Position numbers and translations under genes: made by a program. From Herbiconiux sp. A18JL235 (GTDB taxonomy: Bacteria > Actinomycetota > Actinomycetes > Actinomycetales > Microbacteriaceae): 64,000 nucleotides of DNA. A model generated the notes under the pieces. That model saw only the letters and a program-made list of their open reading frames with translations, did no database searches and was not told the DNA's origin. Shown piece after piece: positions 1-64,000 of the stretch (the first letter of the stretch is position 1; each line of letters begins with the position of its first letter). The stretch is from NCBI RefSeq assembly GCF_040939305.1, contig NZ_CP162511.1, positions 2,728,001 to 2,792,000 of the forward strand. Reading direction: 5' to 3'.

Positions 1-1
1 C

Positions 2-727
2 CTAGTGGGAGCGGCCTGTTGTCGTGAGATCGATGCGGTCGTGCACGACCTCCACCACCCGGGCGACGGTCTGGTCGAAGTCGAGGTGGGTCGAGTCGAC
101 GGTGGTCACACCGTCGGCGGCGTTCATGAAGTCGACGACCCGCGAATCCGCCTGATCGCGAGACCGCAGCGCGGCTCCGACCTTCTCGGCCGACTCGCCC
201 GTCAACTCCTTCGAACGCCTCGCCATTCTAGCCTCTTCACTGGCCGTGAGCAGGATGCGCACCGGAGCATCCGGAGCCACCACCGTCGTGATGTCACGCC
301 CCTCCACGACGACCCCGGGGAACGATGAGGCGGCGACGATCGCCCTGAACCGCTCGTTCAGCCACACCCGCACCTCGGGCACGCGGGCGACGAGACTCAC
401 CACGGCGGTGACGCGCGGCTCACGGATGGCGTCGGTGACCTCGGTCTCGCCCACTCGCACGAAGTAGTGCTCGGGGTCGGTGCCGATGCGGAAGTCGAAG
501 TCGTCGAGCTCTGCGATGACGACGGATGCGTCCTCCGCGTCGACCTGCCGCTCCAGCAGGCTCCAGGCGAGCGCCCGGTAGGAGGCGCCCGTGTCGAGGT
601 ACCCGAAGCCGAGCTCCCGCGCCGCCGCCCTGCTCACGCTCGACTTGCCGCTGCCCGCGGGCCCGTCGACCGCCACCGTGACGGGTTCCCGCACGCTCAC
701 GCCGCTCTCCCTCTCGCTCTCGTTCAT
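2..727 (-). CDS. cmk: cytidylate kinase
   Basis: Phosphorylates CMP and dCMP to the diphosphates with ATP, a cytoplasmic pyrimidine-salvage step. The 241-residue protein has the P-loop GPAGSGKSS at residues 22-30, then the family motifs [11 protein letters not shown] and [11 protein letters not shown] that bind CMP, and an Arg-rich lid (RMARRSKEL). Length fits the family. The ATG at 727 overlaps the tyrA stop by 4 bp (ATGA), so translation is probably coupled to tyrA. The stop lies at the window edge. In many actinomycetes the GTPase gene der follows or is fused, but that would lie outside the window. Confidence 0.96.
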
Positions 728-1806
728 CCTGCAATCCTCCACCCGCGCGCGGCGAGCGCCTCCGTCAGCCGCTCGAGCACCTCGGGCAGCACCGAGATCT
801 CGGCGAGACCCACCTGCGCCCCGGGTGAGTGCTCGAGCCGCAGATCTTCGAGGTTCACTCCCTCTTCCCCGACCTCGGCGAACAGCCGCGCGAGCTCCCC
901 TGGCCTGTCGTCGACCATGACCACGAGCGAGGCGTACTTCTTGTCCTGCCCGTGCTTGCCCGGAATCCGTGCCACCCCGGCGTTGCCCGCCGCGAGCCCC
1001 TCGGCGATGCCCCGCCGCGCTCCCGGCGCGGCCGGGTCGGCCAGCGCGCCGATGAACCGGTCGAGGTCGTCGCGGAACAGCTGCAGCTGCTCCACCACGA
1101 GCGGCGCGTTGGCGCCGAGGATCTGCACCCACAGCTCGGGGTCGCTGGCCGCGATGCGCGTCACGTCGCGCAGCCCCTGCCCGGCGAGGTTCACCGCCGA
1201 GTCGGGTGCGGCGATGAGCCGCTGCGCCAGCACCGACGACACCACCTGCGGCACGTGCGACACCAGCGCCACACCCGCGTCGTGGTCGGCAGCCGTCATC
1301 TCGACGAGGGTCGCTCCGAGGTCGAGGATGAGGTCGTCGACCGCCGCCGCCGTCTGGTACGAGATGGCAGGATGCCCGGCCACCACCCACGGGCGCCCCA
1401 CGAACAGGTCGGCACGGCCCGACATCGGCCCGCCCTTCTCCCGCCCGGCGAGCGGATGCGACCCCACGTAGCGGGTGAGGTCACCGCCCGCGGCGGCCAC
1501 CGCATCAAGGATCGGCTGCTTCACACTCGCCACGTCGGTGACGACAGCCCGCGGGTAGGCCGAGAGCTCGCGCACGATGACCGTGGCCGTCACGTCGGGC
1601 GGCACGCACACCACGACGAGCTGCGGTTCGTCGCCGTCGGTCGTCCGGCGCCCCGCCCCGTAGTCGATGGCGATGCTCACATTCGTCGGCGACGCATCCG
1701 ACAGGATCACATCGACCCCGCGCGCACGCAGTCCGAGCGCGATGCTGGTGCCGAGCAACCCCACCCCGACCACCCGCACGGGCCCCGTCAACCGGCTCTC
1801 CACCAC
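724..1806 (-). CDS. tyrA: prephenate dehydrogenase with C-terminal ACT domain
   Basis: Oxidative decarboxylation of prephenate to 4-hydroxyphenylpyruvate with NAD, the committed step to tyrosine. The 360-residue protein starts with a Rossmann dinucleotide site (GVGLLGTS, residues 14-21), followed by the conserved SVK and [12 protein letters not shown] motifs of the TyrA family. The last 75 or so residues (from [15 protein letters not shown]) look like an ACT domain, which in this family senses tyrosine. Two tandem GTG codons are possible starts (1806 and 1803). It sits 2 bp after rluB and overlaps cmk by 4 bp. The rluB-tyrA-cmk order is common in actinomycetes. Confidence 0.94.
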
Positions 1807-1808
1807 GA

Positions 1809-2720
1809 CTACTTCCCCTTCTTCCGAGGCGCGCCCTGCCCCGCGGGCGCCGTGCTCTTCGTGTGAGATGAGGCGCGCTTCTCAGGCGCCGCGGGCTCGT
1901 CCGCCGCATCCGCCGCCGCATCCGCAGCGGCATCCGCCGCTCCCTTCGCCGCGGCGTCCCGCGACAGCGTCAGCAGCGCCCCCACCTCGGCCCTGCTCAG
2001 CTCCCGCATCCCGCCGGCCTTCAGCGTGCCGAGGTTGAGCGGCCCGAACGACCGCCGCACGAGCTCCACGACGGGGTGCCCGACCTCGGCGAGCATCCGC
2101 CTCACGATGCGGTTGCGCCCCGAGTGCAGGGTCAGCTCGACGAGCGAGGTCGACCGCTCCACGTCGAGCAGCCGCGCCTTGTCGGCGGCGATCGGCCCGT
2201 CGTCGAGCGTCACGCCCGCGGTCAGCCGCGCCACCGTCTGCGGAGTCACCCGCCCCTCCACCTTCGCGATGTACGTCTTCATCACCCCGAACGACGGATG
2301 CGCGAGCACGTGCGCGAGATCGCCGTCGTTGGTCAGGATGAGCAGCCCGCTGGTCTCGGCGTCGAGCCGGCCCACGTTGAACAGCCGCTCCTCGAACGAG
2401 TCGGTGAACCGGCGCAGGTCGGGCCGGCCGCGCTCGTCGGAGAGGGAACTCACGACACCGACGGGCTTGTTGAGCATCACGTAGCGCTTGGCGGGGTCGA
2501 GCTGCACGGCGACACCGTCGACGGCGACGAGATCGGTGGCGGGGTCGATGCGCCGCCCGAGCTCGGTGACGATCTCGCCGTTCACCTCGACCCGCCCGGC
2601 CTCGATCAGCTGCTCCGACACGCGGCGCGACGCCACACCGGCTGCCGCCATCACCTTCTGCAGCCGCACGCCCTCAGGCGCTCGATCGTCGTTCCACGGC
2701 GGGATCTCGAACGGAGTCAT
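1809..2720 (-). CDS. rluB: 23S rRNA pseudouridine synthase, RluB/RsuA family
   Basis: Isomerises a uridine of large-subunit rRNA to pseudouridine. An S4 RNA-binding domain occupies about residues 18-65 (VRLQKVMAAAGVASRR). The catalytic core has the RsuA/RluB motif GRLDAETSGLLILTNDG with the nucleophile Asp120 and the later GRNRIVRRM motif. The C-terminal tail from about residue 258 is an Ala/Asp-rich, then basic, low-complexity extension ending in RKKGK. The ATG at 2720 overlaps the scpB stop by 4 bp. RsuA and RluF subfamilies share these motifs; RluB is the usual assignment for the gene next to scpB. Confidence 0.93.
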   Translation of the reverse strand: MTPFEIPPWNDDRAPEGVRLQKVMAAAGVASRRVSEQLIEAGRVEVNGEIVTELGRRIDPATDLVAVDGVAVQLDPAKRYVMLNKPVGVVSSLSDERGRPDLRRFTDSFEERLFNVGRLDAETSGLLILTNDGDLAHVLAHPSFGVMKTYIAKVEGRVTPQTVARLTAGVTLDDGPIAADKARLLDVERSTSLVELTLHSGRNRIVRRMLAEVGHPVVELVRRSFGPLNLGTLKAGGMRELSRAEVGALLTLSRDAAAKGAADAAADAAADAADEPAAPEKRASSHTKSTAPAGQGAPRKKGK

Positions 2721-3361
2721 CGCACCTGTCCTGTCTCATCGAAACCTTCGCTGCCGTCGTCGAGCAGCGGCGAGATGCGGGGCAGCTCGTCGAGGGAGTT
2801 GATGCCGAGCTGCGTGAGCAGCAGATCGGTCGTGCCGTAGAGGATGGCGCCCGTCTCGGCCTGCGTCGACACCTCCGTGATCAGCCCGCGGCTGAGCAGC
2901 GTGCGCACCACCGAGTCGACGTTGACGGCGCGGATGCTCGCCACGGCCCCCCGGGAGATGGGCTGCTTGTACGCGATCACCGAGAGCGTCTCGAGCGCCG
3001 CCTGCGACAGCCGCGACGGGTTCTGCGTGGTGACGAAGTCGCGCACCAGGCCGTCCCAGTCGCCGCGCACGTAGAACCGCCAGCCGCCTGCCACCTCACG
3101 CAGCTCGAAGCCGCGCCGCACGCTGCCGGGAGCGACGCCGTCGTAGTCGTCGACGAGTCGCTCGATCGCCTGGCGCACCACCGCGACGGGTCGCCCGACG
3201 GCGGTGGCGAGCGCCACGAGCCCCTGCGGCTCGTCGGCGACCATGAAGATCGCCTCCAGCGCCCGGTCGACATCGACGGTCGCAGGCTCGGCGGTCTGCA
3301 CCGTCTCGGCGGCCTGCACCGTCTCGGCGGTCTCGGCCACCGTCTCTCCGTCAGCTGTCAT
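2717..3361 (-). CDS. scpB: segregation and condensation protein B
   Basis: Accessory subunit of the SMC-ScpAB condensin that organises and separates chromosomes. The 214-residue protein has the paired winged-helix regions of ScpB, with the conserved stretch SQAALETLSVIAYKQPISR followed by IRAVNVDSVVRTLLSRGLI. An acidic Thr/Ala/Glu-rich N-terminal 30 residues precede the fold. Its ATG at 3361 lies inside the end of scpA (11 bp overlap) and its stop overlaps rluB by 4 bp, so scpA-scpB-rluB is one translationally coupled unit. Confidence 0.94.
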   Translation of the reverse strand: MTADGETVAETAETVQAAETVQTAEPATVDVDRALEAIFMVADEPQGLVALATAVGRPVAVVRQAIERLVDDYDGVAPGSVRRGFELREVAGGWRFYVRGDWDGLVRDFVTTQNPSRLSQAALETLSVIAYKQPISRGAVASIRAVNVDSVVRTLLSRGLITEVSTQAETGAILYGTTDLLLTQLGINSLDELPRISPLLDDGSEGFDETGQVR

Positions 3362-4229
3362 AGTCCGCCCCCAGGTTCGCGAGGTTCTCCTCGCTCCAGT
3401 CCTCCGCCGTCCAGGTGAGGGTGAGGTCGCCGAGCGGCTCCAGCTGCTCGAACGAGATCGACGCGTGCCGGTACAGCTCGAGCACCGCGAGGAACCGCGC
3501 GATCACCACACCCTTCTCGACGATCCCCGCGATCAGCTCCCGGAACGACACCGCCCCGCCCCGCCGCAACACCGCCACCACGTGTGCGGCCTGCTCTCGG
3601 ATGCTCACGAGCGGCGCGTGCAGGTGCTCGAGCCCCACCACCGGCAGCTCACGCGGTGTCATGGCCACGACGGCGAGCGCGGCGAAGTCGTCGGGCGAGA
3701 GCGTCCAGACAAGTTCCGGTGTCTGCTGCCTGAACTTCTCCTCGAGCCGCACCGCGCGCGGCCAGCGTGTCGCCTCCTGCTCGAACCGGTCGGCGAGCCA
3801 CGCCGACACCACCTTGAAGGCGCGGTATTGCAGAAGACGCGCGAACAGCAGGTCGCGCGCCTCGAGCAGCGCCACGTCTTCGGCGTCGACGAGCTCTCCC
3901 TGCGGCAGCAGCCCGACGATCTTGAGGTCGAGCAGTGTCGCCGCCACCACCAGGAACTCGGAGGCGCGGTCGAGCTCCTCCGCGGAGTCCAGCCCTTTGA
4001 GGTAGGCGATGAACTCGTCGGTCACCCGGCTGAGCGAGACCTCGGTGATGTCGAGCTCGTGCTTGGTGATGAGCGAGAGCAGCAGGTCGAACGGCCCCTC
4101 GAAGTTGTCGAGGCTGAGCGAGAACCCGGGCGCCGCCTCGGGAACCGTGGGGGCCTCGTCGACCGCGGCAGCAGCATCCTGCACCACCGCCGGCCCGCCC
4201 GCCGCGCGGCGCTCAGGCGATCGCGCCAC
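3351..4229 (-). CDS. scpA: segregation and condensation protein A
   Basis: Kleisin subunit that bridges SMC heads in bacterial condensin. The family hallmark near the N-terminus is clear (FEGPFDLLLSLITKHELDI), followed by the DEFIAYL and LLDLKIVGLLP stretches and a C-terminal winged helix. I chose the GTG at 4229 because GGGAG lies 10 nt upstream; it gives 292 residues and overlaps the parA end by 17 bp. GTG codons at 4187 and 4184 are alternatives that would remove a poorly conserved Ala/Pro-rich head. Confidence 0.9.
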   Translation of the reverse strand: MARSPERRAAGGPAVVQDAAAAVDEAPTVPEAAPGFSLSLDNFEGPFDLLLSLITKHELDITEVSLSRVTDEFIAYLKGLDSAEELDRASEFLVVAATLLDLKIVGLLPQGELVDAEDVALLEARDLLFARLLQYRAFKVVSAWLADRFEQEATRWPRAVRLEEKFRQQTPELVWTLSPDDFAALAVVAMTPRELPVVGLEHLHAPLVSIREQAAHVVAVLRRGGAVSFRELIAGIVEKGVVIARFLAVLELYRHASISFEQLEPLGDLTLTWTAEDWSEENLANLGADYDS

Positions 4230-5115
4230 GCGCGACGAGCTCCCTGGCCAGCTGCTTGTACGCCTTGGCGGAGTTGTGCTCGGGTGCGAACTGGGTGATG
4301 GGCTTGCCCGCCACCGTCGCATCCGGGAACTTCACCGTGCGCCCGATCACCGTCTCGAACACCTTGTCGCCGAAGGTCTCCACCACGCGCTCGAGCACCT
4401 CGCGCGAGTGCAGGGTGCGCGGGTCGTACATGGTGGCGAGGATGCCGTCGAGCACGAGCGCCGGGTTCAGCCTGTCGCGCACCTTGTCGATGGTCTCGAC
4501 GAGCAGGGCCACGCCGCGCAGCGCGAAGTACTCGCACTCGAGCGGGATGAGCACGCCGTGGCTCGCGGTGAGCGCGTTCACGGTGAGGAGGCCGAGCGAG
4601 GGCTGGCAGTCGATGAGGATGACGTCGTACCGGTCGCTCACCTTGCGCAGCACCCGCGCGAGGATCGACTCGCGGGCCACCTCGCTGACGAGGTGCACCT
4701 CGGCGGCCGAGAGATCGATGTTCGCCGGGATGATGTCGAGCCCGGGAACGCTCGTGGGCTGGATGGCCTCGAGCGGGTCTTTGACGTTGCCGATCAGGAG
4801 GTCGTAGATGGTGACGGCGTCGTGCGTCTGCACCCCGAGCCCCGCCGACAGCGCCCCCTGCGGGTCGAAGTCGATGGCGAGCACACGCCGGCCGTACTCG
4901 GCGAGCGCGGCCCCCACGTTGACCGAGGTGGTGGTCTTGCCCACCCCGCCCTTCTGGTTGCAGAGCGAGATGATGCGCGCCGGCCCGTGCGAGGGCAGGG
5001 GCGCGGGCACCGGGAACTCCGTGACGGGCCGGCCCGTGGGCCCGAGCTTCGCCACCTCGATGCCGTCGAGCTCGGAATCCGCGGTCTTGGCCGTTCTCGT
5101 GTTCCTGCTCGGCAC
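4213..5115 (-). CDS. ParA/Soj-family chromosome-partitioning ATPase
   Basis: Cytoplasmic Walker-type ATPase of the ParA/MinD group. It carries the deviant Walker A motif QKGGVGKTT, the A' motif FDPQGALS and the Walker B-like ILIDCQPSLGLLT. No parB follows, so this is the second ParA copy that actinomycetes keep beside scpAB and xerD rather than the parAB pair at the origin. A role with condensin is inferred from position only. The GTG at 5115 has AGGAG 8 nt upstream; a GTG at 5124 would leave no spacing to that site. The protein is 300 residues. Confidence 0.9.
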   Translation of the reverse strand: MPSRNTRTAKTADSELDGIEVAKLGPTGRPVTEFPVPAPLPSHGPARIISLCNQKGGVGKTTTSVNVGAALAEYGRRVLAIDFDPQGALSAGLGVQTHDAVTIYDLLIGNVKDPLEAIQPTSVPGLDIIPANIDLSAAEVHLVSEVARESILARVLRKVSDRYDVILIDCQPSLGLLTVNALTASHGVLIPLECEYFALRGVALLVETIDKVRDRLNPALVLDGILATMYDPRTLHSREVLERVVETFGDKVFETVIGRTVKFPDATVAGKPITQFAPEHNSAKAYKQLARELVARGAIA

Positions 5116-5195
5116 CGACGTCACTCCTGTTCCAGCCCGCCATCCCGGCGGGCCTGATCGATTCTAACGGGCGGGGCGCATCCTGGTCTCCTGCC

Positions 5196-6200
5196 TCACC
5201 GGGCGCGCGGATGCGCGGTGAGATACATGTCGATGAGCGTGTCGGCAGTGAGCTGCGTGTAGAGCTGGGTGGTGGCGACGGAGGAGTGGCCGAGCAGGTC
5301 TTGCACGACCCGCACGTCGGCCCCGCCCTGCAGCAGGTGCGTGGCGAAGGAGTGCCGGAAGGTGTGCGGCGAGATGTGCACCTCGAGCCCCGCCCGCTCG
5401 GCGGCGGCCTGGATGACGAGCCACGCGCCCTGGCGGCTGAGCCGCTGGCCGCGGATGCCGAGGAAGAGCGCCGGCGTCGAGGTGCCCCGCCTCGACAGCT
5501 CGGGTCGCACGCGCACGAGATAGGTGTCCAGGGCGGCACGGGCGTAGCTGCCGACGGGCACGATGCGCTGCTTGCTGCCTTTGCCGGTGACCCGCACCAT
5601 GTCGCCGTCGTGCACGTCGTCGACGTTGAGTCCGACGAGCTCGGAGATGCGCGCCCCGCTGGCGTAGAGCAGTTCGAGCAGGGCCCGGTCGCGCAGCGAC
5701 ACCAGGTCGTCGGCGGCCGTCGCGCCGAGCAACCGCTCCATCTGCTCGATGCTGATGGCCTTCGGCAGCCTCAGCCCGAGCTTCGGCGGCTTCACCTCGC
5801 GGGCGACGTCGGTGGCGACGGCTCCCTCCTCGGCGAGGTACCGGTGGAACCCGCGCACGCTCGACAGGATGCGCGCGACCGACGCAGCGCTCATCACCCC
5901 ACCGTCGCCGGTGCGGAGCGCCTGGGTGAAGGCGGCGATGTCGGCCTCGGTCACCTCGCCGAGCGCGTCGACCCCGGCCTCGGCCAGCCACCCTGCGTAC
6001 CGGGCGAGATCCCGCCGATACGCGGCCACCGTATTCTCCGACAGTCCGCGCTCCACGGTCACGTGCCGTAGGAAAGCCTGCATCGAGCGCTCCACCCCGG
6101 GCGGGACCGGCCTCCCCGGCCCCGAGAGCGCGACAGTTCCCGTAGACGCACCACCCGGCGGCTCGTGGGGAGAACTCCGCGCGTCCACGCGCTCAGCCAC
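5196..6200 (-). CDS. xerD: tyrosine recombinase XerD
   Basis: Site-specific recombinase that resolves chromosome dimers at dif, normally with XerC and activated by FtsK (also encoded here at 54782-57670). An N-terminal SAM-like core-binding domain (about residues 40-130) is followed by the catalytic domain with Arg184 (SGARISELVGL), the Lys motif GKGSKQR, His279-x-x-Arg282 (HTFRHSFATHLL), His305 (LGHSS) and the nucleophile Tyr314. It starts inside the end of the Nudix gene (8 bp overlap). The first 38 residues are extra compared with most XerD; Met40 (6083) is an alternative start. Confidence 0.93.
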   Translation of the reverse strand: MAERVDARSSPHEPPGGASTGTVALSGPGRPVPPGVERSMQAFLRHVTVERGLSENTVAAYRRDLARYAGWLAEAGVDALGEVTEADIAAFTQALRTGDGGVMSAASVARILSSVRGFHRYLAEEGAVATDVAREVKPPKLGLRLPKAISIEQMERLLGATAADDLVSLRDRALLELLYASGARISELVGLNVDDVHDGDMVRVTGKGSKQRIVPVGSYARAALDTYLVRVRPELSRRGTSTPALFLGIRGQRLSRQGAWLVIQAAAERAGLEVHISPHTFRHSFATHLLQGGADVRVVQDLLGHSSVATTQLYTQLTADTLIDMYLTAHPRAR

Positions 6201-6858
6201 CCTGGCGCTCCGGCCACGCGGCGTCGGCGGGCCGCAACGTGCTCCAGCCCCTGGCGCGTGACGCCTGGGCGGCGAGCGCCCCGATCACGAGCGACGGGTT
6301 CTGCACCCGGCTCGCCAGCACGGCGTCGACGAGCTCGTCGAGTCCCACCCAGCGCTGCTCCATGTCGGCCTCCTCGCCCTCCCGCTCGAAGGTCGATCCG
6401 GCTTGCCGCAGCCCCCGCGCCAGGTAGATGCGGATTGCCTCGTTGTTCCCTCCGGGAGTCGTCAGGTAGTCGATCAGCACGTGCCACTCGTCGGCCTCGA
6501 GGTCGACCTCCTCGGCGAGCTCGCGCTGCACCGCGGCGAGCGCCGGCTCCCCGCCCACGTCGAGCAGCCCCGCGGGCGGCTCCCACTCACGCCGCCGCAC
6601 CGGGTGCCGGTACTGCTTGATGAGCAGCACACGGTCGTCGTCGTCGAGCGCGAACACCGCGACGGCCCCCGGGTGGTCGACGAAGTCGCGCCGCAGCGTG
6701 CCGTCGCCGTAGGCGAAGGTCTCCCGCCGCACGTCCCAGATGTAACCGTCGAACACGACGTCGCTCGAGGAGACCTCGACCGACGTCACCTCATCGGCGA
6801 GGAGTGCGTGCGTCCCTCGCGCCCCCTCGGCCGGCCCCGACCCGCCCGTCTCAGGCAT
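6193..6858 (-). CDS. Nudix hydrolase, probable ADP-ribose pyrophosphatase
   Basis: Probably hydrolyses ADP-ribose to AMP and ribose 5-phosphate. The 221-residue protein contains the Nudix helix at about residues 97-120, with REL at 112-114 and the paired EE metal ligands just after. The [10 protein letters not shown] lead-in is typical of ADP-ribose pyrophosphatases. The Gly that usually closes the Nudix box (EExG) is Asp here. It lies between pyrG and xerD, overlapping both by 8 bp, an order common in actinomycetes. Confidence 0.9.
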
Positions 6859-8557
6859 CCGCGTCCTGCACGGCGAACAGCCTGCTGGCCTCCTGGCGCT
6901 CGAGCGCCGCTCCCACGAGCCCCTTGAACAGCGGATGCGGGCGCGACGGCCGCGACCGGAGCTCCGGATGCGCCTGGGTAGCGATGTAGTACGGATGCAC
7001 GTCGCGCGGCAGCTCGACGTACTCCACCAGGTGCCCGTTCGGTGACAGCCCGGAGAACCACAGCCCCGACTCGGCGATCTGGTCGCGGTAGCTGTTGTTC
7101 ACCTCGTAGCGGTGACGGTGGCGCTCCGACACGCTCGACGCCCCGTAGACCTCCTCCGCGATCGATCCGGAAGCGAGTGAGGCCTCGTAGAGACCGAGTC
7201 GCATCGTGCCGCCGAGGTCTCCCCCGGCGATGATGTCGACCTGCTCGGCCATCGTCGCGATGACCGGGAACTCGGTGTCGGGATCGAACTCGCTCGACGA
7301 CGCGCCCGGCAGCCCGGTGACGTGCCTCGCGTACTCGATCACCATGCACTGGAGGCCGAGGCAGAGCCCCAGGGTGGGGATGCCGTTCTCGCGCGCGAAC
7401 TGCAGCGCGCCGAGCTTGCCCTCGATGCCGCGCACGCCGAACCCGCCCGGCACGCAGATGCCGTCGACGTCGGAGAGCTCGCGGGCCGCGCCCTCGGGCG
7501 TCTCGCAGTTGTCCGACGGGATCCACTTGATCTTCACCTTGGCCCGGTGCGCGAACCCGCCGGCGCGGAGCGCCTCCGTCACCGAAAGGTAGGCGTCGGG
7601 CAGGTCGATGTACTTGCCCACGAGTCCGATCGTCACGTCGTGCTTGGGCTCGTGCACCGCATCCAGGATCGGCTGCCACCTCGTCCAGTCGACGTCGCCG
7701 GTGGCGTCGCCCAGGTCGAGGTGGTCGACGATGTAGGCGTCGAGACCCTGCGAGTGCAGCATCGTCGGGATGTCGTAGATCGAGGGCACGTCGACGGCGT
7801 TCACGACAGCCGCCTCGTCGACGTCGCACATGAGCGCGATCTTGCGCTTGTTGCTCTCGGAGACGGGCCGGTCGCTGCGCAGCACCAGAGCATCCGGCTG
7901 GATGCCGATGGAGCGCAGGGCCGCCACCGAGTGCTGCGTGGGCTTGGTCTTCTGCTCGCCGGAGGCGTTCATGAAAGGCACGAGCGAGACGTGCACGAAG
8001 AACACGTTCTTGCGGCCGAGCTCGTGGCGCACCTGGCGGGCAGACTCGATGAACGGCTGCGACTCGATGTCGCCCACGGTGCCGCCGATCTCGGTGATAA
8101 TGACGTCAGGCCGCGACGCGTCGTGCGCCTGCAGCCGCATGCGCCGCTTGATCTCGTCGGTGATGTGCGGGATGACCTGCACGGTGTCGCCGAGGTACTC
8201 GCCGCGCCGCTCCTTGGCGATGACGCTGGAGTAGATCTGACCTGTGGTGACATTCGCCGCCTGGTTGAGGTCGATGCCGAGGAAGCGCTCGTAGTGGCCG
8301 ATGTCGAGGTCGGTCTCGGCCCCGTCGTCGGTCACGAACACCTCGCCGTGCTGGAACGGGTTCATCGTTCCCGGGTCGACGTTGAGGTAGGGGTCGAGCT
8401 TCTGCATCACGACGCGGAGCCCGCGTGCGGTGAGCAGATTGCCGAGGCTCGCCGCCGTGAGGCCTTTGCCGAGAGAGGAGACGACACCCCCTGTGACGAA
8501 GATGTGCTTCGTCAGTTTCGTCTCGTTCGTACGTTCCGCGTCATGAGCTTCATCCAC
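6851..8557 (-). CDS. pyrG: CTP synthase
   Basis: Makes CTP from UTP, ATP and glutamine. The N-terminal synthetase domain opens with [18 protein letters not shown] and carries the [16 protein letters not shown] motif. The C-terminal class I glutaminase domain has the nucleophile-loop sequence GLCLGLQCM and the late His-Pro-Glu (QAHPEL). I place the start at GTG 8557, with AGGA 9 nt upstream, overlapping the preceding gene by 8 bp and giving 568 residues. An in-frame reading begins further upstream, but that extra stretch reads as an out-of-frame copy of the neighbour. Confidence 0.95.
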
Positions 8558-10046
8558 GGAGTTCCATCCTAACAGTGCTCTCGTCGACCTGGTCGTCCGC
8601 TGCCGCATCCGTGTCGCCGTCGGTTCCACCGGCGGGCTTGCCTCCGGGCGGAACGGATGCTGCGTCCTCCGCCTCCACGGCGGCGCCGCCCGGCCATCCC
8701 GCCGGCCGCTGCAGAACCTCGACGAGCAGCAGCAGCACCACAGCCACCACGGCCGTCCACACGATCTGCCCGGTCGAGAGCGGCCTCACGAACACGATGA
8801 CAGCGGCGGCGATCACCCCGATGAGCACCTGCACGAGCACCCGCTGCCTGCCGAGCGCCCGCCCGAACGCTCCCGTCGAGATGCCGCGCCGGTCGCCGAC
8901 CCGGCGCAACCGGCCGACGCCTTCGCCGAACGCCGACCGCAGCGCGGGTGCGGGTCGCCAGGGCCCCAGCACCCAGCTGACGACCATGACGGTGAAGCCG
9001 AGCGTCGCGACCGCGGCGATCGTGGAGGCGATGAGCGAGGTGACCCCGTCGTAGACGGCCGACACGGCGGGGCCCGGAACGTACTGCGCTGTCGAGGCGA
9101 TCGCCACGACGTTGCCGACGCGCAGCGCGATGCCGAGGAGCACCATCAGCACCCCCAGCGCGAGCCCGGTCGCGAACAGGGTCACGACCCGCCGCTTCGC
9201 GACGGCAACACCCGCAGCGAGGAAGAGCAGCGCGACGACGGGCAGCCACTGCCCGACACCCACCGCGAGCCCGTAGATGAGGGTGAGCTGGCTGAGACTC
9301 GCCGACTGTGCCACCACGATGCCGATGTCGACGCTCGGGATGGCTTGCGCGAAGCCGAGCCCCTGCGCCACCATCGCCCCCTTCACGGCGTCGATGATCG
9401 GCCCCAGCTGAATGCTGAGCTCCCCCGTCGACGAGATCGACAGCGCCCTGCCGGGGTCGTTCGTGAGCGCCGCCACCAGCTGCTGGTGACTGATGCGGAG
9501 GGTCTGCTGCCAGATGGTCTCGAACGCCTCCGAGTCGACGAAGTTCGTCACGACAGTGGTCGCCAGGGTTCGCAGCCCGAGCGCGGCGGGCGTCTCCAGG
9601 GCCTGCAGGGCAGCGGATGCGCGGGGCGGCAGCCCCAACTGGTCGACGGCCTCGAACACCTCCCGGGTCGACTGCTCGAAGTCGACCTGCTCGTCGACCA
9701 CCCTCATCACCTGGTCGACCAGGAACGCCTTCACGTCGGGGTCGTGGGCCAGCGGGCCGAAGGTCGCGACGAAGCGGTCGGTGTCGACGAGCTGCCCCTG
9801 CGCCCAGGAGCCCACCACCGCGACGGGCGCGAGCAGCAGCCCGATGACGACGAGCACCACCGATGCGACGGTGCGCCCGCGGTGCCGGCGGTGACGGGGC
9901 GCCTCCTCGGAAGTCGGAGCGGCCCGGTCGGCCAGCACCGCATCCGCGCGCTCGGCGGCAGCACGGGCCTCGTCGCGCAATAGCGTGTTCTCGGCCTGCA
10001 GGCGCTCCACCAGCTCCTGCAACTGACCGTTCGTGAGTCGCGCCAT
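8550..10046 (-). CDS. multi-pass membrane protein with N-terminal coiled coil
   Basis: No function recognised. The 498-residue protein begins with a short Leu-zipper-like coiled coil ([19 protein letters not shown], about residues 9-27) and a basic patch (RHRRHRGR), then a membrane segment near residue 60. A long extracytoplasmic-looking stretch of about 170 residues (roughly 80-250) follows, then a cluster of about three membrane spans (about 260-370), two more near 405-450, and an acidic Ala/Asp-rich tail. The layout, cytosolic zipper plus large external loop plus membrane bundle, resembles actinomycete proteins annotated only as integral membrane proteins. It overlaps pyrG by 8 bp. Confidence 0.85.
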
Positions 10047-16336: not shown

Positions 16337-16350
16337 TCTTACAAAGAAGT

Positions 16351-16467
16351 CCGGCGGTGTCCTACTCTCCCACAAGGTCCCCCTTGCAGTACCATCGGCG
16401 CTGAGAGTCTTAGCTTCCGGGTTCGGAATGGGACCGGGCGTTTCCCTCTCGCTATGGCCGCCGAAAC
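16351..16467 (-). rRNA. rrf: 5S ribosomal RNA
   Basis: About 117 nt. Read on the minus strand it starts GTTTCGGCGGCCATAGCG and ends with GGACACCGCCGG; the two ends pair as helix I. The internal CCCATTCCGAACCCGG segment is the universal 5S loop sequence. Ends are set by helix I and may be off by 1-2 nt. Confidence 0.97.
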
Positions 16468-16606
16468 ACTATTGATGTATAGGTTTCAACAGTCCAACAC
16501 GTGGTGTTGGTGTTGGGTTCTCGACCGTACATCGAGAACCACTCAGTAGACGCGAGCATCAGGCCCCACATGCCAGCCTTACAACATGCATGTGAGTAGT
16601 GATTTA
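16468..16606 (-). other. 23S-5S spacer with 3' half of the 23S processing stem
   Basis: No tRNA. Bases 16532-16560 (plus strand reads CGAGAACCACTCAGTAGACG, then CGAGCATC) are complementary to bases 19835-19864 in the 16S-23S spacer, with the last 12 bp perfectly paired. The duplex would enclose the whole 23S gene, as an RNase III-type processing stem does. Confidence 0.8.
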
Positions 16607-21675
<5,069 letters not shown>

Positions 21676-22725: not shown

Positions 22726-25312
<2,587 letters not shown>

Positions 25313-43594: not shown

Positions 43595-43601
43595 CCCAGC
43601 G

Positions 43602-44058: not shown

Positions 44059-44118
44059 GATTCCTCCTGAGGGTTCGCACCGGCGCTCGGCCGGGAGCGC
44101 CGGTGCGAAGTTGTGTTC

Positions 44119-44968: not shown

Positions 44969-44980
44969 GCCCGCCGACAC

Positions 44981-46585: not shown

Positions 46586-46604
46586 GAATAGTCTCCTGGT
46601 TTGC

Positions 46605-46610
46605 TAGATT
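46605..46610 (+). promoter_or_regulatory. -10-like box of the RsmC-like gene
   Basis: TAGATT, 6 nt before the ATG at 46617, with no ribosome site between. This predicts a leaderless transcript. The whole divergent region to hflX is 31 bp, and the hflX ribosome site lies inside it, so the two promoters must interlock with the neighbouring coding sequences. Confidence 0.55.
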
Positions 46611-46616
46611 CCCTCT

Positions 46617-47231: not shown

Positions 47232-47285
47232 CCCCCGAGAGCGAGACGCCCGTTCGGTGCGACCCGCCCGGCCGTCAGCGAGCGG

Positions 47286-48167: not shown

Positions 48168-48173
48168 GGAATC

Positions 48174-48179
48174 AGTCTA
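48174..48179 (-). promoter_or_regulatory. -10-like box of dapF
   Basis: TAGACT on the minus strand, 6 nt before the dapF ATG and just after the miaA stop (15-bp gap). Same spacing as in argC, dapA and the RsmC-like gene. Confidence 0.5.
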
Positions 48180-48182
48180 GGG

Positions 48183-49145: not shown

Positions 49146-49148
49146 CCT

Positions 49149-50765
49149 TCAGCCCCGCAGATCGTCGGTGGAACTGTAGATCGGCACGGTCGCGACGCGC
49201 GGGGTCGACGGTGCACCCGCACGCAGGGCCGGCAGCCCCAGCGAGACCCGCCCCGGCGCGGAACCCTCGCCCGCGCTGGCACTGGTGGCGCTCGGCACGG
49301 CGCAGGACTCGGCCTCGCTCCTGTCCCAGGCATCACCCGCGCGGGTTCGCCGAACCTCGAGCGGGGTGCCGTCGCTGTCGGCGATGAGGTAGTACGGCGC
49401 CGCCTGGGTGACCGTGACCGACACGACGTCGCCCGGGCGCGGAGCAGCCGAACCCTCGGGGAGCTCGAAGTGCACCAGCCTGCTGTCTTCCGCGCGACCG
49501 CTCAGTCGCTTCGTCTCGCCGTCCTTCCGGCCCTCGCCGTTCGCGACCACGAGCTCGACACGTCGCCCGACGATCTTCTGGTTCTCCTCCAGCGAGATGC
49601 GGTCTTGCAAGGCGACCAGGCGGTCGTAGCGCTCCTGCACCACCTCGCGCGGCACCTGATCGGGCATGGTCGCCGCGGGGGTGCCTGGTCGGATCGAATA
49701 CTGGAAGGTGAACGCCGATGCGAAGCGGGCCTGCTCGACGACCCGAAGGGTCTCCTGGAAGTCCTCCTCGGTCTCGCCGGGGAAGCCCACGATGATGTCG
49801 GTGCTGATCGCGGCGTTCGGGATCTTCGCGCGCACCCGGTCGAGGATGCCGAGGAACTTGGCAGAGCGGTACGAGCGCCGCATGGCCCGGAGCACGCGGT
49901 CTGACCCCGACTGCAAGGGCATGTGCAGCTGCGGCATCACCGCGGGGGTCTCCGCCATGGCGTCGATGACGTCGTCGGTGAACGCCGCCGGGTGCGGGCT
50001 GGTGAAACGGATGCGTTCCAGGCCCTCGATCTCTCCGGCCGCCCGGAGGAGCTTTCCGAAGGCCAGCCGGTCGCCGAACTCGACGCCGTAGGAGTTGACG
50101 TTCTGGCCGAGCAGAGTGACCTCGAGGGCACCGTCATCGACCAGCGACTGCAGCTCGGCGAGGATCTCACCCGGGCGACGATCTTTCTCCTTGCCGCGGA
50201 GCGCCGGCACGATGCAGAAGGTGCAGGTGTTGTTGCAGCCCACGGAGATGGAGACCCAGCCGCTGTAGGTGGAGTCGCGCTTCGTCGGGAGAGTGGAGGG
50301 GAACGTCTCGAGCGCCTCGAGGATCTCGATCTGCGCCGCGTCGTTGTGTCGAGCGCGCTCCAGCAGGCTCGGCAGTGCTCCCATGTTGTGGGTGCCGAAG
50401 ACCACGTCGACCCAGGGGGCCTTATCGAGGATGACGTTCTTGTCTTTCTGGGCGAGACAGCCGCCGACCGCGATCTGCATGCCCTCGTGGCGACGCTTCA
50501 CCGAAGCGAGGTGTCCGAGGTTGCCGTAGAGCTTGTTGTCGGCGTTCTCCCGCACGGCACAGGTGTTGATCACGACGACGTCGGGCTCCACGCCCTCAGC
50601 CCTGACGTAACCCGCAGCTTCGAGCGAGCCGCTCAGACGTTCGGAGTCGTGGACGTTCATCTGGCAGCCGTAGGTGCGGACCTCGTAGGTGCGTGCCCGC
50701 CCCGACGCGTCGCGTGACGCGTTCGACGCTGCGATGATCGTCGGTGCTTCGCTGACTGTGCTCAT
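49149..50765 (-). CDS. miaB: tRNA-2-methylthio-N6-dimethylallyladenosine synthase
   Basis: Radical-SAM methylthiotransferase acting after MiaA. N-terminal UPF0004 domain with Cys in [18 protein letters not shown] and GGCLAQ; radical-SAM CxxxCxxC in [12 protein letters not shown]; then a C-terminal TRAM domain. The chain of 538 residues is extended at the C-terminus by about 50 low-complexity residues ([17 protein letters not shown]) beyond TRAM. Confidence 0.95.
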
Positions 50766-50832
50766 GGTGCGACCAGTCTACGAAACCGCGGCAGGCCGTT
50801 CGCTCTCGACCGACGCCGCCGCAGCGACCCTG

Positions 50833-51582
50833 TCAGCGGAAACGCACACGGCTTGCGGCCTTGCGGGTGGCCATGGCACGCCGGGTCGCCTCGCGCACGA
50901 TGCTCGAACCGAAACCACGGCGAGCGAGGAAGCCGTTGAGCCGACGCTCGGCGGTCTCGTCGTCGTAGCGCGACAGCTGGCCCACGCGCTTCACAGCGGC
51001 CTCGACGGCGAGCTCGAACTCGTGGTCGTCGTCGAGGTTCTCGAGCGCCGCCGTGACGAGTTCGGAGGGGATCTTGCGGGCATGGAGCTCGCGCGCGATG
51101 ACCGCCCGGCTCTTGTGGCTGCGCTCGCTCAACCGCGCCACCAGCGCTTCGGCGAGGGCCGCGTCGTCGAGGTAGCCCAACTCTTCGTAGCGCGCGACGA
51201 GCCCGTCGGCCTCGGCTCCGCTCGCCCCCTGGGCCACGAGCAGCTCGTGGGCCTCGCCCGAGGAGAGCTGCCGGCGCCCGAGTGCCCGCACGACGGTGTC
51301 GCTCACCCGCTCGAGCCGCTCCTCGTCGGAGAGCTCGACCGGAGCCGGGAACTCGATGGGTGCGGGAGAACCGACCGCGGCCGGGAACTCCACCGGGGCG
51401 CCCGACGCGGTCTCGTGGTCGGCGTCGCGCCCGGCCGGGTGCGACGAGCGAGCGGGGTGCGCCGATCGAGAGGGCAGGCCCACGGGCTCACGGGTGCCCG
51501 CACCGTCAGCGCCCGACTCGGGCGCCGACGGGCGCGTCCGCCCACGGCGGCGCACCGAGTCGAGGTTGACGATGTCGTTCAT
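50833..51582 (-). CDS. recX: regulatory protein RecX
   Basis: Inhibits RecA filament growth. The C-terminal half has RecX three-helix repeats (ALGRRQLSSGEAHELL, LGYLDDAALAEALVAR, LARRGFGSSIVREA). The N-terminal 90 residues are Arg/Pro/Ala-rich and disordered-looking, longer than in E. coli RecX (249 against about 166 residues). It follows recA by 6 bp, the standard order. Confidence 0.93.
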   Translation of the reverse strand: MNDIVNLDSVRRRGRTRPSAPESGADGAGTREPVGLPSRSAHPARSSHPAGRDADHETASGAPVEFPAAVGSPAPIEFPAPVELSDEERLERVSDTVVRALGRRQLSSGEAHELLVAQGASGAEADGLVARYEELGYLDDAALAEALVARLSERSHKSRAVIARELHARKIPSELVTAALENLDDDHEFELAVEAAVKRVGQLSRYDDETAERRLNGFLARRGFGSSIVREATRRAMATRKAASRVRFR

Positions 51583-51588
51583 CGTGGG

Positions 51589-52659
<1,071 letters not shown>

Positions 52660-52862
52660 TTCGGTCTCCTTCGTGCTGTGCGACCTGGCGGCCGGCGATG
52701 GTGTGCCCACAGGCTGTCGTGTTCGCGCCCCTCACGGGGTGGCGACGACAGGGCGTCGACGAGAGTTCGTCGAACACCCTTCACGTTAGAGAAGACCACC
52801 GACATCGAAGCTGCCGGCCGACTCATGTGTGGAGAACGTGTTCGAATCTCTCACTGTGCAGA

Positions 52863-52891
52863 ACTCTACGCCGCACCGAAGATATGTTCGA
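52863..52891 (-). promoter_or_regulatory. recA promoter with overlapping LexA box
   Basis: Minus strand: TCGAAC (52886-52891), 17-bp spacer and TAGAGT (52863-52868). The -35 is part of a LexA box at 52877-52890 (minus strand CGAACATATCTTCG, one mismatch from CGAAC-N4-GTTCG). Transcription would leave a leader of about 200 nt (52660-52860), which holds no gene I can support. Confidence 0.65.
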
Positions 52892-52917
52892 GAGTCCCGC
52901 GGCGTGTTGCGAACACG

Positions 52918-52949
52918 AAAAAGCCCCCGGCCTCTGCCGGGGGCTTTTT
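52918..52949. terminator. bidirectional intrinsic terminator
   Basis: AAAAA, then a perfect 9-bp stem GCCCCCGGC / GCCGGGGGC with a 4-nt loop, then TTTTT. It sits 3 bp after the DUF3046 stop and before the recA promoter, so it ends the ftsK-side operon and insulates recA. Confidence 0.93.
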
Positions 52950-52952
52950 CGA

Positions 52953-53180
52953 TCACGTCTCTCGTGGAGCGGGAAGTCCTGCTCCGTGCCAGCGCTGGGG
53001 CGGCACATCCGCCGACCGGCAGACCGCGAGCCACACCTCTCGCGGGGGGATTCCTGCCTTCAGCGCCTGTTCGGCGGTTCGGTCGCCGAGGTCGACCAGG
53101 ACGACATCGCTCGTCACCACCTGCCCGTAGGCCGGGCCGAACTCGTCGGCGACGGCCTGCCTGAACTCACTCAGCCGCAC
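52953..53180 (-). CDS. DUF3046 protein
   Basis: A 75-residue protein starting at GTG 53180. VRLSEFRQAVADEFGPAYG and the core DLGDRTAEQALKAGIPPREVWLAVC match the DUF3046 family found upstream of recA in actinomycetes. Function is unknown. It is cytoplasmic and ends directly at an intrinsic terminator. Confidence 0.87.
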   Translation of the reverse strand: MRLSEFRQAVADEFGPAYGQVVTSDVVLVDLGDRTAEQALKAGIPPREVWLAVCRSADVPPQRWHGAGLPAPRET

Positions 53181-53196
53181 TCCGTGCCGCAGTCGT

Positions 53197-53505
53197 TCAG
53201 CGGGCGACGAGGTCGGCGTCGAAGTCGGCGACGAACTCGTCGGGGATGGTGTCGGGGATGGGATCGATGCCCTCGACGATCGCGAGACGGTCGCCCACCT
53301 CGCGCATGATGACCGAGATCGGGGTGTCGAGAGCTTCGGCCACCGAGGCGAGGATCTCGCTCGAGGCCTCCTTCTGACCACGCTCGACCTCGCTCAGGTA
53401 GCCGAGGGCGACGCTCGCCTTACTTGCCACTTGACGAAGGGTACGACCCTTCTGCAGGCGGAAGTCCCGAAGCACGTCGCCGATTTCCTGACGAACTAGA
53501 ATCAC
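53197..53505 (-). CDS. clgR: ClgR-like XRE-family regulator
   Basis: A 102-residue DNA-binding protein. The helix-turn-helix is at about residues 18-50 (GRTLRQVASKASVALGYLSE, then VERGQKEAS). ClgR in streptomycetes, corynebacteria and mycobacteria activates clp protease genes and sits after pgsA-cinA as here. The start is GTG 53505 with AAGGAGGG upstream. The C-terminus is acidic and ends Val-Ala-Arg. ClgR is itself degraded by Clp in other species; whether this tail acts so is not known. Confidence 0.88.
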   Translation of the reverse strand: MILVRQEIGDVLRDFRLQKGRTLRQVASKASVALGYLSEVERGQKEASSEILASVAEALDTPISVIMREVGDRLAIVEGIDPIPDTIPDEFVADFDADLVAR

Positions 53506-53668
53506 TGGACCCTCCTTGCGTTCCTGTCACGGTCTGTTCGAGTGGCTCTTCTGACCACGTTACTGCAGTGGTTCGTAGCAGTGACTCTAAACGACTGGGA
53601 CTGAACAATACTTGTGAATGACACCAGATGTAACGTGATCGAAACGGCGCCCATTCCCTCTACGGAGC

Positions 53669-54175
53669 TCACAGGGAATCTCTCAGGATTCGCAGCGCCA
53701 CCCGTACGGTCTCGGCCCTGATCGCTGCCCGATCGCCGCTCAACTCGAGGGCATGGCTGCGCACGTCGGCACCGATGGCGACGCCCACGTACACCGTTCC
53801 CGGCGCCGCCCCGTCCTGCGGGTCCGGCCCGGCCGCACCGGTCGTCGAGATGCCGATCTCGGCCGGGGTGCCCTCGACGGCGAGCGCGCTGCGCACACCG
53901 ACCGCCATCTGCATCGCCACGTCGGCGTGCACGGGGCCGTGGGCCGCCAGTACCTCCGCGTCGACTCCGAGCACCGTGTGCTTCACCGCGGTGTCGTAGG
54001 CGACGACTCCGCCGCGCAGCACCGCCGACGCTCCGGGAACGTCGACCAGCGCCGAGCACAGCAGCCCACCCGTGAGCGACTCCGCGACCGCGATCGTGGT
54101 GCGGCTCAGGGTGAGGGTGGCGACGATGGCCGCAGCGTCGTCGTTCACCGCGGCCACAGCATCCGTCTCGCTCAC
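53669..54175 (-). CDS. pncC: CinA-family nicotinamide-nucleotide amidohydrolase
   Basis: Deamidates NMN in pyridine-nucleotide recycling. The 168-residue single-domain form corresponds to the C-terminal domain of CinA: TIAVAESLTGGLLCSAL, GVVAYDTAVKHTVLGV and STTGAAGPDPQDG. GTG at 54175 overlaps the pgsA stop by 4 bp. The 163-bp gap downstream (53506-53668) has to hold the clgR promoter; I see no clear -35/-10 pair. Confidence 0.92.
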   Translation of the reverse strand: MSETDAVAAVNDDAAAIVATLTLSRTTIAVAESLTGGLLCSALVDVPGASAVLRGGVVAYDTAVKHTVLGVDAEVLAAHGPVHADVAMQMAVGVRSALAVEGTPAEIGISTTGAAGPDPQDGAAPGTVYVGVAIGADVRSHALELSGDRAAIRAETVRVALRILRDSL

Positions 54176-61926: not shown

Positions 61927-63296
61927 GCTCTCTCCTTCGTGTCGTCGTTCGTCGTGGTCTTACCGGCCTTCGGCAGCTTCACCGGGCCCGTGGCGACCCG
62001 CACCGGGCCGGTGTCGCCCTCGTCGTCTCCCCGTGCATCCGGATCGCGCCGCACCGTCGCGGTGACCAGCCGCTTTCGTCTGCCCTCGGTGCGGTCTGCC
62101 GTGAGGATGAGGCCCGCGATGCGCGCCTCGTCGCCGGTCTCAGCGAGCCTGCCGAGCCCCTTGGCGAGCAGGCCCCCCACGGTGTCGACGTCGTCGTCGT
62201 CGAGCTCGAGTCCGAACAGCTCGCCGAGTTCGTCGACCGGCAACCTGGCGCTCACCCGGAAGGTGTCGACGGCCTCGAGCGGCTCGACCTCGACCATGTC
62301 GCGGTCGTACTCGTCGGAGATGTCGCCGACGAGCTCCTCGAGCAGGTCTTCGAGGGTGACGAGGCCTGCGATGCCGCCGTACTCGTCGACCACCATGGCG
62401 AGGTGGTTCGACTCGGCCTGCATCTGCCGGAGGGTGTCGTCGACCTTCTTCGACTCCGGGATGAGCAGGGCCGGGCGGGCGAGCTCGGCGACCGTCGTGG
62501 TCTCCAGCTTGGCCGGGCGTTCGTAGCTCAGCCGCGCGACGTCGCGCAGGTAGAGCACACCCGAGATGTCGTCGACCCGGCCACCGACCACCACGGGCAT
62601 GCGCGAGACGCCCTTGCTGAGGAAGAGCCCGAGACCGTGCCCCACCGTGTCGTCGTCGTCGACGGTCACCATGTCGGTGCGCGGGATCATCACCTCGCGC
62701 ACCACCGTGTCGTTGAACTCGAGGATCGAGTGGATGAGCTCGCGGTCGTCTTCCTCGAGCACCTCGAGCTCGGTGGCCTCGTCGACCATGCTGAGCAGCT
62801 GCTCCTCCGAGGAGAAGGTGCCCGAGCGGATGCGCCCCGGGGTCACCCGATTGCCGATGGCCACCAGCGCGTTCGCCAGCGGACCGAGTACCACGCGCGT
62901 CACGTGCACGGGCACGGCGCCCCAGCGGACGATGGCTTTCGGATGCGCACGGCCGACGCTGCGCGGGCTCGATCCCACGAGTACGAACGAGACCGCCGTC
63001 ATCACCACGGCCGACAGCACGAGGGCGATCCACAGCTCGTCGATGGTGAACGCGAACGAGATGGTGATGAGCACCGCCGCCGTGGTCTCGAACACCACGC
63101 GGGCGAAGTTCGCGGCGTTGAGGTGGGCCGCGGGGTCTTCGGCGATGGCCCGCAGCGACCGCTTCGCGCGCGCCCGCTCGGCGAGCTCGAGCAGATCGCC
63201 GCGGGAGAGCGAGAGCACCGCGGTGTCGATCGCCGCGAACAGGCCGCCCAGCGCCACCAGCACGACGGCCGCGAGGAGGAACAGGACGATGGTCAT
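61923..63296 (-). CDS. CNNM/CorC-type membrane protein with CBS domains
   Basis: A 457-residue protein: DUF21-type membrane domain with three to four spans (about 1-140), a CBS pair (MIPRTDMVTVDDDD; VDEYGGIAGLVTLEDLLEEL) and the CorC/HlyC C-terminal domain (FRVSARLPVDELGELFG). Relatives act in Mg/Co efflux or are called hemolysin-like; haemolysis is not implied. It ends with a basic and Thr/Lys-rich tail. It overlaps ybeY by 1 bp (TAATG). Confidence 0.9.
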   Translation of the reverse strand: MTIVLFLLAAVVLVALGGLFAAIDTAVLSLSRGDLLELAERARAKRSLRAIAEDPAAHLNAANFARVVFETTAAVLITISFAFTIDELWIALVLSAVVMTAVSFVLVGSSPRSVGRAHPKAIVRWGAVPVHVTRVVLGPLANALVAIGNRVTPGRIRSGTFSSEEQLLSMVDEATELEVLEEDDRELIHSILEFNDTVVREVMIPRTDMVTVDDDDTVGHGLGLFLSKGVSRMPVVVGGRVDDISGVLYLRDVARLSYERPAKLETTTVAELARPALLIPESKKVDDTLRQMQAESNHLAMVVDEYGGIAGLVTLEDLLEELVGDISDEYDRDMVEVEPLEAVDTFRVSARLPVDELGELFGLELDDDDVDTVGGLLAKGLGRLAETGDEARIAGLILTADRTEGRRKRLVTATVRRDPDARGDDEGDTGPVRVATGPVKLPKAGKTTTNDDTKERA

Positions 63297-63760
63297 TACT
63301 TACGGCGGCGCTCGCTCATCGCGAACCCCACGAGGATGTCGCGCTGGATGCCGAACATCTCGCGCTCCTCGTCGGGTTCGGCGTGGTCGAAGCCGAGCAG
63401 GTGCAGGATGCCGTGGGTGGTGAGCAGCAGCAGCTCCTCCAGAGTGGAGTGCTTCGCAGCCTTGGCCTGCTCCTCGGCGACCTGCGGGCAGAGCACCACG
63501 TCGCCCAGGAGGCCAGCCGGGGTGGGCGCGTCTTCGGTGCCGGGGCGCAGCTCGTCCATCGGGAAGCTGAGCACATCGGTGGGCCCGGGCTCGTCCATCC
63601 ACTGCACGTGCAGCTGCTCCATGGCCGCCTCGTCGACCAGGACGATGGCGAGCTCGGCGTCGGGGTGCACATGCATCTGGTCGAGCGCATAGCTCGCCAG
63701 ACGCAGCAGCGCCGTCTCGTCGACCTCGATTGACGACTCGTTGTTCAGTTCGATCGACAC
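63296..63760 (-). CDS. ybeY: rRNA maturation endoribonuclease YbeY
   Basis: Zn-dependent RNase involved in 16S rRNA 3'-end maturation and 70S quality control. The metal motif [17 protein letters not shown] carries the three His. [11 protein letters not shown] is the second family block. The start at GTG 63760 (GAGGA upstream) gives 154 residues, normal for YbeY. It lies 10 bp after phoH. Confidence 0.95.
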
Positions 63761-63770
63761 GTGCGCATCC

Positions 63771-64000
63771 TCATCGCTTGTTCCTGTACCGGCGGTCGCG
63801 CTCGCTCGGGCCCTGATAGCCGGGGTTCTCGCGACGCGCGAGCTCCACCTGATCGTATTTCGTGTACGCGTCGACGATCTGCCCCACCAGCGTGTGCCGA
63901 ACCACGTCGGCACTCGTCAGCGTGGCGAAATGGATGTCGTCGATCGAGCCGAGGATGCGCGTCACCACCTGCAGACCGCTGGTGCCGATCGGAAGGTCGA
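63771..64000 (-). CDS. phoH: PhoH-like ATPase, C-terminal part only
   Basis: The gene enters from beyond the right edge; the visible 75 codons encode [20 protein letters not shown], then [20 protein letters not shown], the typical PhoH C-terminus, and a basic tail (RDRRYRNKR). PhoH proteins are RNA-linked P-loop ATPases; the Walker motifs lie outside the window. The phoH-ybeY-CBS-era order is standard in actinomycetes. Confidence 0.88.

Follow-up and report, generated by a model that had tools for sequence, protein, structure and literature searches.

A 64,000-nucleotide stretch of the Herbiconiux sp. A18JL235 chromosome (hereafter the window; bases 2,728,001-2,792,000 of a 4.19-Mb contig, in a genome of 4.3 Mb) raises the question of why one heptamer, CGGATGC, recurs so often on both of its strands. 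The excess is confirmed as real and is larger than claimed in the initial annotation of the window, which had pointed it out. CGGATGC is probably a word that is recognised by a protein and is subject to weak selection or drive acting on the word as a whole.

For the first 10 kb of the window, the initial annotation had counted 32 copies of the hexamer GGATGC/GCATCC (18 and 14 on the two strands) and 23 copies of CGGATGC, and for positions 22000-32000 more than 20 hexamers; the recounts are 33 (18 on the plus and 15 on the minus strand), 23 and 24, respectively. The complete window contains 104 hexamers, a number attained in no dinucleotide shuffle out of 100 (mean 50.1, standard deviation 7.0), and 60 heptamers compared with 21.4 expected under a first-order model, with the first 10 kb denser in CGGATGC than the remainder. 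Within the window, many ordinary coding words outscore CGGATGC by first-order z, and its z of 2.9 under a maximal-order Markov model is a weaker signal than that in the genome sample described below. Because the window alone fails to single the word out, the case for CGGATGC rests on the genome sample and on the relatives of A18JL235.

Across the genome, CGGATGC is present in 4,587 copies, compared with 1,043 for the reversed word, and is split almost evenly between the strands (2264 plus and 2323 minus; 483 and 560 for the reversed word), in agreement with the little strand bias noted originally. The genome sample of 464 kb comprised the window and 20 stretches of 20 kb, with genes called by a simple codon-model script. 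Two null models were applied: one in which synonymous codons were shuffled within genes and a stricter one in which codons of the same block were shuffled before an identical next base, so that the dinucleotides at codon junctions were kept. When heptamers were ranked by a Poisson-type z (30 shuffles), CGGATGC took the top place among 5535 and 5264 words under the two models, respectively, with 387 copies observed vs 108 and 130 expected, and GCATCC was the top hexamer under both; the excess thus survived the codon-shuffled comparison that had been named in the initial annotation as a way to refute it. The enrichment grows with word length, from 1.9-fold for the 6-mer to 3.0-, 7.6- and 11.5-fold for the 7-, 8- and 9-mers.

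All six coding registers show the excess, which is slight in the ATC register (84 vs 72 under the stricter null). The original observation that the word imposes rare codons in different phases applies to most sites and fails for the 84 of the 387 coding sites that lie in the ordinary xGC-ATC-CG register. The proposal that the pressure acts on DNA and not on protein is borne out both by the codon nulls and by non-coding DNA, in which CGGATGC is found 104 times vs 22 expected (first-order model). The spacers between called genes contain 117 copies, whereas six words of comparable composition have 7-35 each; the density is 1.44-2.00 per kb in spacers vs 0.99 per kb in genes. Along genes, the distribution is roughly flat (27-53 copies per tenth, the final tenth being somewhat richer). 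The His-Pro and Gly-Cys dipeptides are found in A18JL235 at 1.70 and 1.43 of expectation, compared with 0.82-1.41 and 0.81-2.21 in five relatives, and therefore no clear protein effect is apparent. A signal at the RNA level was rejected given that the coding strand carries both orientations about equally (180 and 207), and a promoter or terminator element given that the word is found in spacers of all three orientations.

The force on the word was assessed at synonymous third positions in 26 stretches (472 kb of coding sequence), by comparing the motif base with its alternatives while the other six bases were fixed. At each position of CGGATGC the motif base is favoured in one frame or more, including over transversions: 98 vs 60.8 expected at position 1, 139 vs 62.6 at position 2, 55 vs 11.5 at position 3 (G over C), 98 vs 30.2 at position 4, 139 vs 20.2 at position 5 (a contrast inflated by the avoidance of GGAC considered below), 93 vs 82.0 at position 6, the weakest, and 98 vs 65.9 at position 7; the ATG cell is uninformative. 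In the cells with a clear preference, the odds ratios range from about 2.5 to 16, which by our own arithmetic corresponds to a scaled coefficient of roughly 1 to 2.8. Two congeners at 83-84% identity were then compared with A18JL235, and the retention of third-position bases within otherwise intact sites was set against that of identical codons outside the word. In one congener 76 of 81 such bases are retained (expected 55.4) and in the other 77 of 86 (expected 55.1); with position 5 left aside, the numbers are 61 of 64 (48.5) and 54 of 61 (44.2). Because all positions are preferred and intact sites resist synonymous change, neither one mutational hot spot nor a codon preference can explain the excess; the neighbour and retention tests alone do not separate selection from a drive exerted by repair or uptake.

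The comparison across Microbacteriaceae that the initial annotation had recommended was made on 150 genomes of the family, using the ratio of CGGATGC to the reversed word, a control that is crude across GC contents, and with statistics uncorrected for kinship. The ratio ranges from 0.3 to 13 and is at least 3 in 90 genomes (rich) and below 1.5 in 19 (poor), whereas 148 genomes from the remaining families of the order have a median of 1.16, with a single genome at 3 or above. The excess appears to be a trait of Microbacteriaceae and is restricted to this family among the genomes sampled. Under a codon null with about 83 kb of coding sequence each, CGGATGC ranks second of 7771 heptamers in G057 (behind the overlapping GGATGCC) and first of 8085 in G091, and shows no excess in G031 (70% GC; 20 vs 18 expected) or G051. 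The excess is missing from two small contigs of A18JL235 of 68 and 53 kb, presumably plasmids (ratios 1.13 and 1.25 vs 3.10 on the chromosome), and from four phages, three of Microbacterium and one of Curtobacterium (42 copies in genes vs 35.4 in the codon shuffle; 5-17 in single phages). In G051, G121 and G096, CGGATGC ratios of 0.30, 0.32 and 0.43 are found together with CGGACGC ratios of 0.06, 0.09 and 0.07, so that the trend of the family seems to be reversed in these genomes.

By ornithine carbamoyltransferase, the nearest named relatives of A18JL235 are an unclassified member of Microbacteriaceae and Herbiconiux, and in the argF tree one of the congeners, G011, pairs with Herbiconiux sp. 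VKM Ac-1786 (branches 0.014 and 0). Among the best 80 named argF loci, of which 77 are long enough, an excess of at least twofold is found at most loci of Cryobacterium, Salinibacterium, Agromyces, Agrococcus and Microbacterium and at 3 of the 4 named Herbiconiux loci. Eleven loci fall below 1.25 (two each from Clavibacter and Rathayibacter, one each from Naasia, Agromyces, Microbacterium, Leifsonia, Compostimonas and Pontimonas, and one from a metagenome-assembled genome); the genes at the low Leifsonia and Compostimonas loci still contain about twice the expected number of GGATGC. The label "high" changes at least 10 times on well-supported branches of the tree.

The bases that flank the word differ between lineages, with two dialect forms, CGGATGCG and CGGATGCC. 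The full form in A18JL235 is the 9-mer ACGGATGCG (68 copies vs 5.8 in the codon shuffle), and CGGATGCC tops the 8-mers in both G057 (94 vs 18) and G091 (72 vs 11.4). The share of CGGATGC copies followed by C varies from 0.12 to 0.79 over 79 rich genomes, compared with 0.19-0.28 for a control word (32 genomes); of the 24 listed genera represented by at least two genomes, 16 are consistent to within 0.10, and one genus, g2, switches (0.69 vs 0.23 and 0.20). That the preference for flanking bases follows lineage suggests recognition by a protein with an evolving specificity.

From the excess, the position and retention results, the distribution and the dialects, all of which are observed, we infer that CGGATGC is read by a protein. 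In the mechanism proposed here, a protein common in Microbacteriaceae would read the word on double-stranded DNA, and the excess would be maintained by a weak force that acts on the word as a unit, through selection or through a molecular drive such as biased uptake, conversion or repair. To judge by its behaviour, CGGATGC acts like a genome-wide recognition word and appears closest to DNA uptake sequences (DUS) and to the highly iterated palindrome HIP1; since it is not a palindrome like HIP1 and lacks the orientation of Chi, it was not filed in any of the DUS, HIP1 or Chi families. The leading specific reading, put forward tentatively, is that the word serves to recognise self-DNA during genetic exchange, much as the DUS of Neisseriaceae do: incoming fragments bearing CGGATGC would be taken up or recombined more often, so that copies would accumulate without polarity. 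The Neisseriaceae DUS are non-palindromic and occur on both strands, as does CGGATGC. According to one account (PMC3630211), they also resemble it as short words in thousands of copies per genome, with a family-level spread and dialects. As regards the marks of a DUS, CGGATGC shows an excess on both strands, of moderate size, and lineage dialects; it differs in being enriched only 3-11-fold and in having actinobacterial hosts. More speculatively still, CGGATGC and its dialects might extend the self-DNA password beyond Neisseriaceae and Pasteurellaceae, as a protein-read word in actinobacterial exchange that was repeatedly lost, for example at the sampled Clavibacter and Rathayibacter loci.

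Several observations weigh against recognition by a protein, in genetic exchange or otherwise. Three informative frame-position cells are nearly without preference, namely position 3 in the ATC frame (93 vs 88.9) and positions 1 and 7 in the GGA frame (22 vs 19.4 and 19.7). Whole sites turn over between congeners, with 40-46% of CGGATGC staying in place vs a mean of 35-37% for all heptamers; the picture is one of a weak pressure that acts on the population of sites rather than on particular sites. The chromosome stretches that have no congener match are richer in the word than the matched ones (1.63 vs 0.96 per kb, genes and spacers pooled), unlike what would be predicted for a mark of the core genome. 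On the argF tree the label "rich" is weakly clustered (19 changes vs a mean of 22.4 in shuffled labels), part of which is noise because each locus is short. Uptake sequences are far more enriched than CGGATGC. Finally, none of the candidate proteins searched for in the 150 family genomes matches the presence and absence of the excess. The competence channel ComEC, matched in 148 genomes, is found both with and without it and, being nearly universal, is uninformative, and the type IV pilus ATPase PilT is not over the cut-off in A18JL235, a further difference from the DUS systems, nor in the rich genomes G057, G126 and G106.

Over the family, PilT exceeds the cut-off in 76 of 150 genomes, among them 50 of the 90 rich and 6 of the 19 poor; its carriers have a median ratio of 4.54 vs 3.23 (p 0.003, kinship uncorrected), and it was rejected as an explanation for want of a clear link. 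The near-universal ComEC match hints at a widespread ability for transformation in Microbacteriaceae. The ComEC gene of A18JL235 is located 16 kb past the end of the window (G000:C1:2808084-2808872), and in G096, in which both CGGATGC and CGGACGC are depleted, the open frame is shorter (574 aa) and the ComEC match within it has a late start (28-267).

A doubtful alternative to self-DNA recognition is a process like that behind HIP1 (GCGATCGC) of cyanobacteria, in which methylation-guided or context-specific repair would turn near-matches into the word while single sites have no effect on fitness. Several near-misses of CGGATGC are depleted relative to the codon null (CGGACGC 0.18, CGTATGC 0.17, CGGATCC 0.32, CGCATGC 0.44), although others are not (GGGATGC 1.33, CGGGTGC 1.34). 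For the cyanobacterial words a repair model has been proposed (PMC4390886), and these share with CGGATGC a high genome-wide frequency, the low level or replacement in some lineages, and lineage-specific presence and variants. HIP1 is, however, palindromic and tied to orphan methyltransferases, whereas CGGATGC is non-palindromic and no such tie was found in a search of PF01555. The check for a matching methyltransferase, suggested in the initial annotation, gave no match to the excess: it covered PF01555, with Vsr as an indirect sign of 5-methylcytosine, and not PF00145 or the Type I and III enzymes. PF01555 is matched in 147 of the 150 genomes, and the enzyme, apparently a solitary methyltransferase of wide occurrence, shares 62-87% identity with the A18JL235 copy in the 19 other genomes aligned, the only ones in which orthology was checked. 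It was rejected as an explanation, rich and poor genomes being alike among the 20 aligned (11 and 9, respectively, with A18JL235 among the rich). Weak PF01555 matches alone are found in the two poorest genomes, G051 (3e-22) and G121 (1.3e-23), in favour of the repair process, but also in the rich G049 (1.9e-21) and G119 (1.4e-14), with ratios of 4.5 and 4.1. Vsr, matched in 34 genomes and over the cut-off in 32, is absent from A18JL235 and was likewise rejected, being unlinked to the excess (p 0.61). The Microbacteriaceae enzyme may be kin of the conserved orphan TTAA methyltransferase that Blow et al. (2016) report in Arthrobacter. The portion available of a type III N4-methylcytosine paper contains no GGAT or GCATC at the start of a word.

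Less likely is a binding site of a nucleoid or chromosome-organising protein. Such a site would fit the presence of the word in all sampled chromosome stretches, on both strands and in spacers of every orientation, and its lack of excess on the two small contigs; on the other side stand the spacing, which is near that of random points (coefficient of variation 1.09) with no clear paired, phased or regular arrangement of sites, and the lack of any replichore pattern. The check for strand bias relative to the origin and terminus, which were placed from gene orientation only, gave 289 leading and 319 lagging copies (p 0.24) and thus no bias. Among the roles first considered, this counts against the replication-polar ones, such as a classical Chi. 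The architecture imparting sequences (AIMS) are strand-biased towards the terminus, and CGGATGC differs from them and from the FtsK-orienting polar sequences (KOPS) in having no replichore polarity with respect to the inferred origin and equal strand counts over the genome. AIMS are 8-bp words for which a role in creating a functional chromosome architecture in bacteria has been proposed (PMC5993296).

An unlikely role is that of a Chi-like site, at which an AddAB/AdnAB-type helicase-nuclease would halt degradation and load RecA. The shortness of the word, its density of about 1 per kb of chromosome and the presence of PDDEXK_1 nucleases (148 of 150 genomes, usually two per genome) recall Chi, and the dialects could track the enzyme. 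Apart from the lack of replichore orientation, however, RecC is found in 0 of the 150 family genomes, which led us to reject RecBCD as the reader, and PDDEXK_1, a broad family that is not tied here to AdnAB, is equally common in genomes without the excess and, like ComEC, too nearly universal to be informative. We know of no Chi for AdnAB.

A single mutational hot spot, by which a methylated or damaged C in GGACGC would become T, is highly improbable. It would account for the depletion of CGGACGC along with the enrichment of CGGATGC and for the sum of non-coding GGACGC and GGATGC, which is 204 vs 205 expected. It was nevertheless rejected on the basis of the position-by-position test, in which positions 1-4 and 7 are preferred too, and of the congener alignment, in which CGGACGC is outside the 14 commonest aligned words listed per comparison; moreover, the CGGACGC and CGGATGC ratios are uncorrelated over the 150 genomes (rho -0.05). 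An ordinary preference for codons, codon pairs or dinucleotides has a negligible chance of being the cause, although many words of a GC-rich genome exceed a first-order model, given that codon usage and junction dinucleotides were rejected with the two codon nulls and that the excess is present in spacers and missing in G031, which has a like GC content.

The tetranucleotide GGAC/GTCC is itself strongly avoided, at 0.20 of the first-order expectation on the chromosome (0.40 of a trinucleotide-based one) and at 0.52 and 0.66 on the small contigs; examples are stretches L001-L020, L145-L150 and L155-L158. In G096 the value is 0.18, with 0 copies of CGGACGC vs 50 expected in 80 kb. This avoidance appears to be separate from the CGGATGC excess, which the depletion of CGGACGC does not track over the 150 genomes, and possibly stems from restriction-site avoidance or a context-specific mutation process. 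In 5-kb bins, GGAC and CGGATGC are weakly correlated (rho -0.17, p 0.09).

Among the matches listed from the open-access literature, assessed from titles and the opening lines of abstracts, no description of CGGATGC as a recognition word was found. In other bacteria, comparable words spread over the genome serve as marks of self-DNA or of recombination sites. Only a few such words, among them DUS, Chi and KOPS, have a reader that is known, and each of these gave rise to a field of research (gene-exchange barriers, break repair, chromosome segregation). CGGATGC is a non-palindromic word that spans much of a family; because it has dialects, apparent losses and culturable hosts, its reader could be sought in pull-down experiments or by contrasting congeners that are rich and poor in the word.

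Location of CGGATGC sites and associated features (window positions, except for the methyltransferase gene)
Feature	Position	Strand	Remark
CGGATGC/GCATCCG	1..64000		60 copies (33 +, 27 -), part of 4587 in the genome
Rich stretch	1..10000		23 CGGATGC, 33 GGATGC
ACGGATGCG	522..530	+	full form of the local dialect
ACGGATGCG	2294..2302	+	
ACGGATGCG	8604..8612	-	
ACGGATGCG	24671..24679	-	
ACGGATGCG	24744..24752	+	
ACGGATGCG	50007..50015	+	
CGGATGC triplet	1906..1936	-	12-bp spacing; within the gene called at 1809-2720
CGGATGC triplet	6932..6998	+	copies at 6932, 6965 and 6992; within the CTP synthase frame
5S, 23S and 16S rRNA genes	16349..21673	-	no CGGATGC; excluded from spacer counts
Small N6/N4 DNA methyltransferase (PF01555) of A18JL235	G000:C1:4092445-4093206	-	

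Within the window, a segment of about 13 kb that includes recA (41263-54158) contains CGGATGC at 47890 and 50008 only, although the rest of the window is rich in the word.

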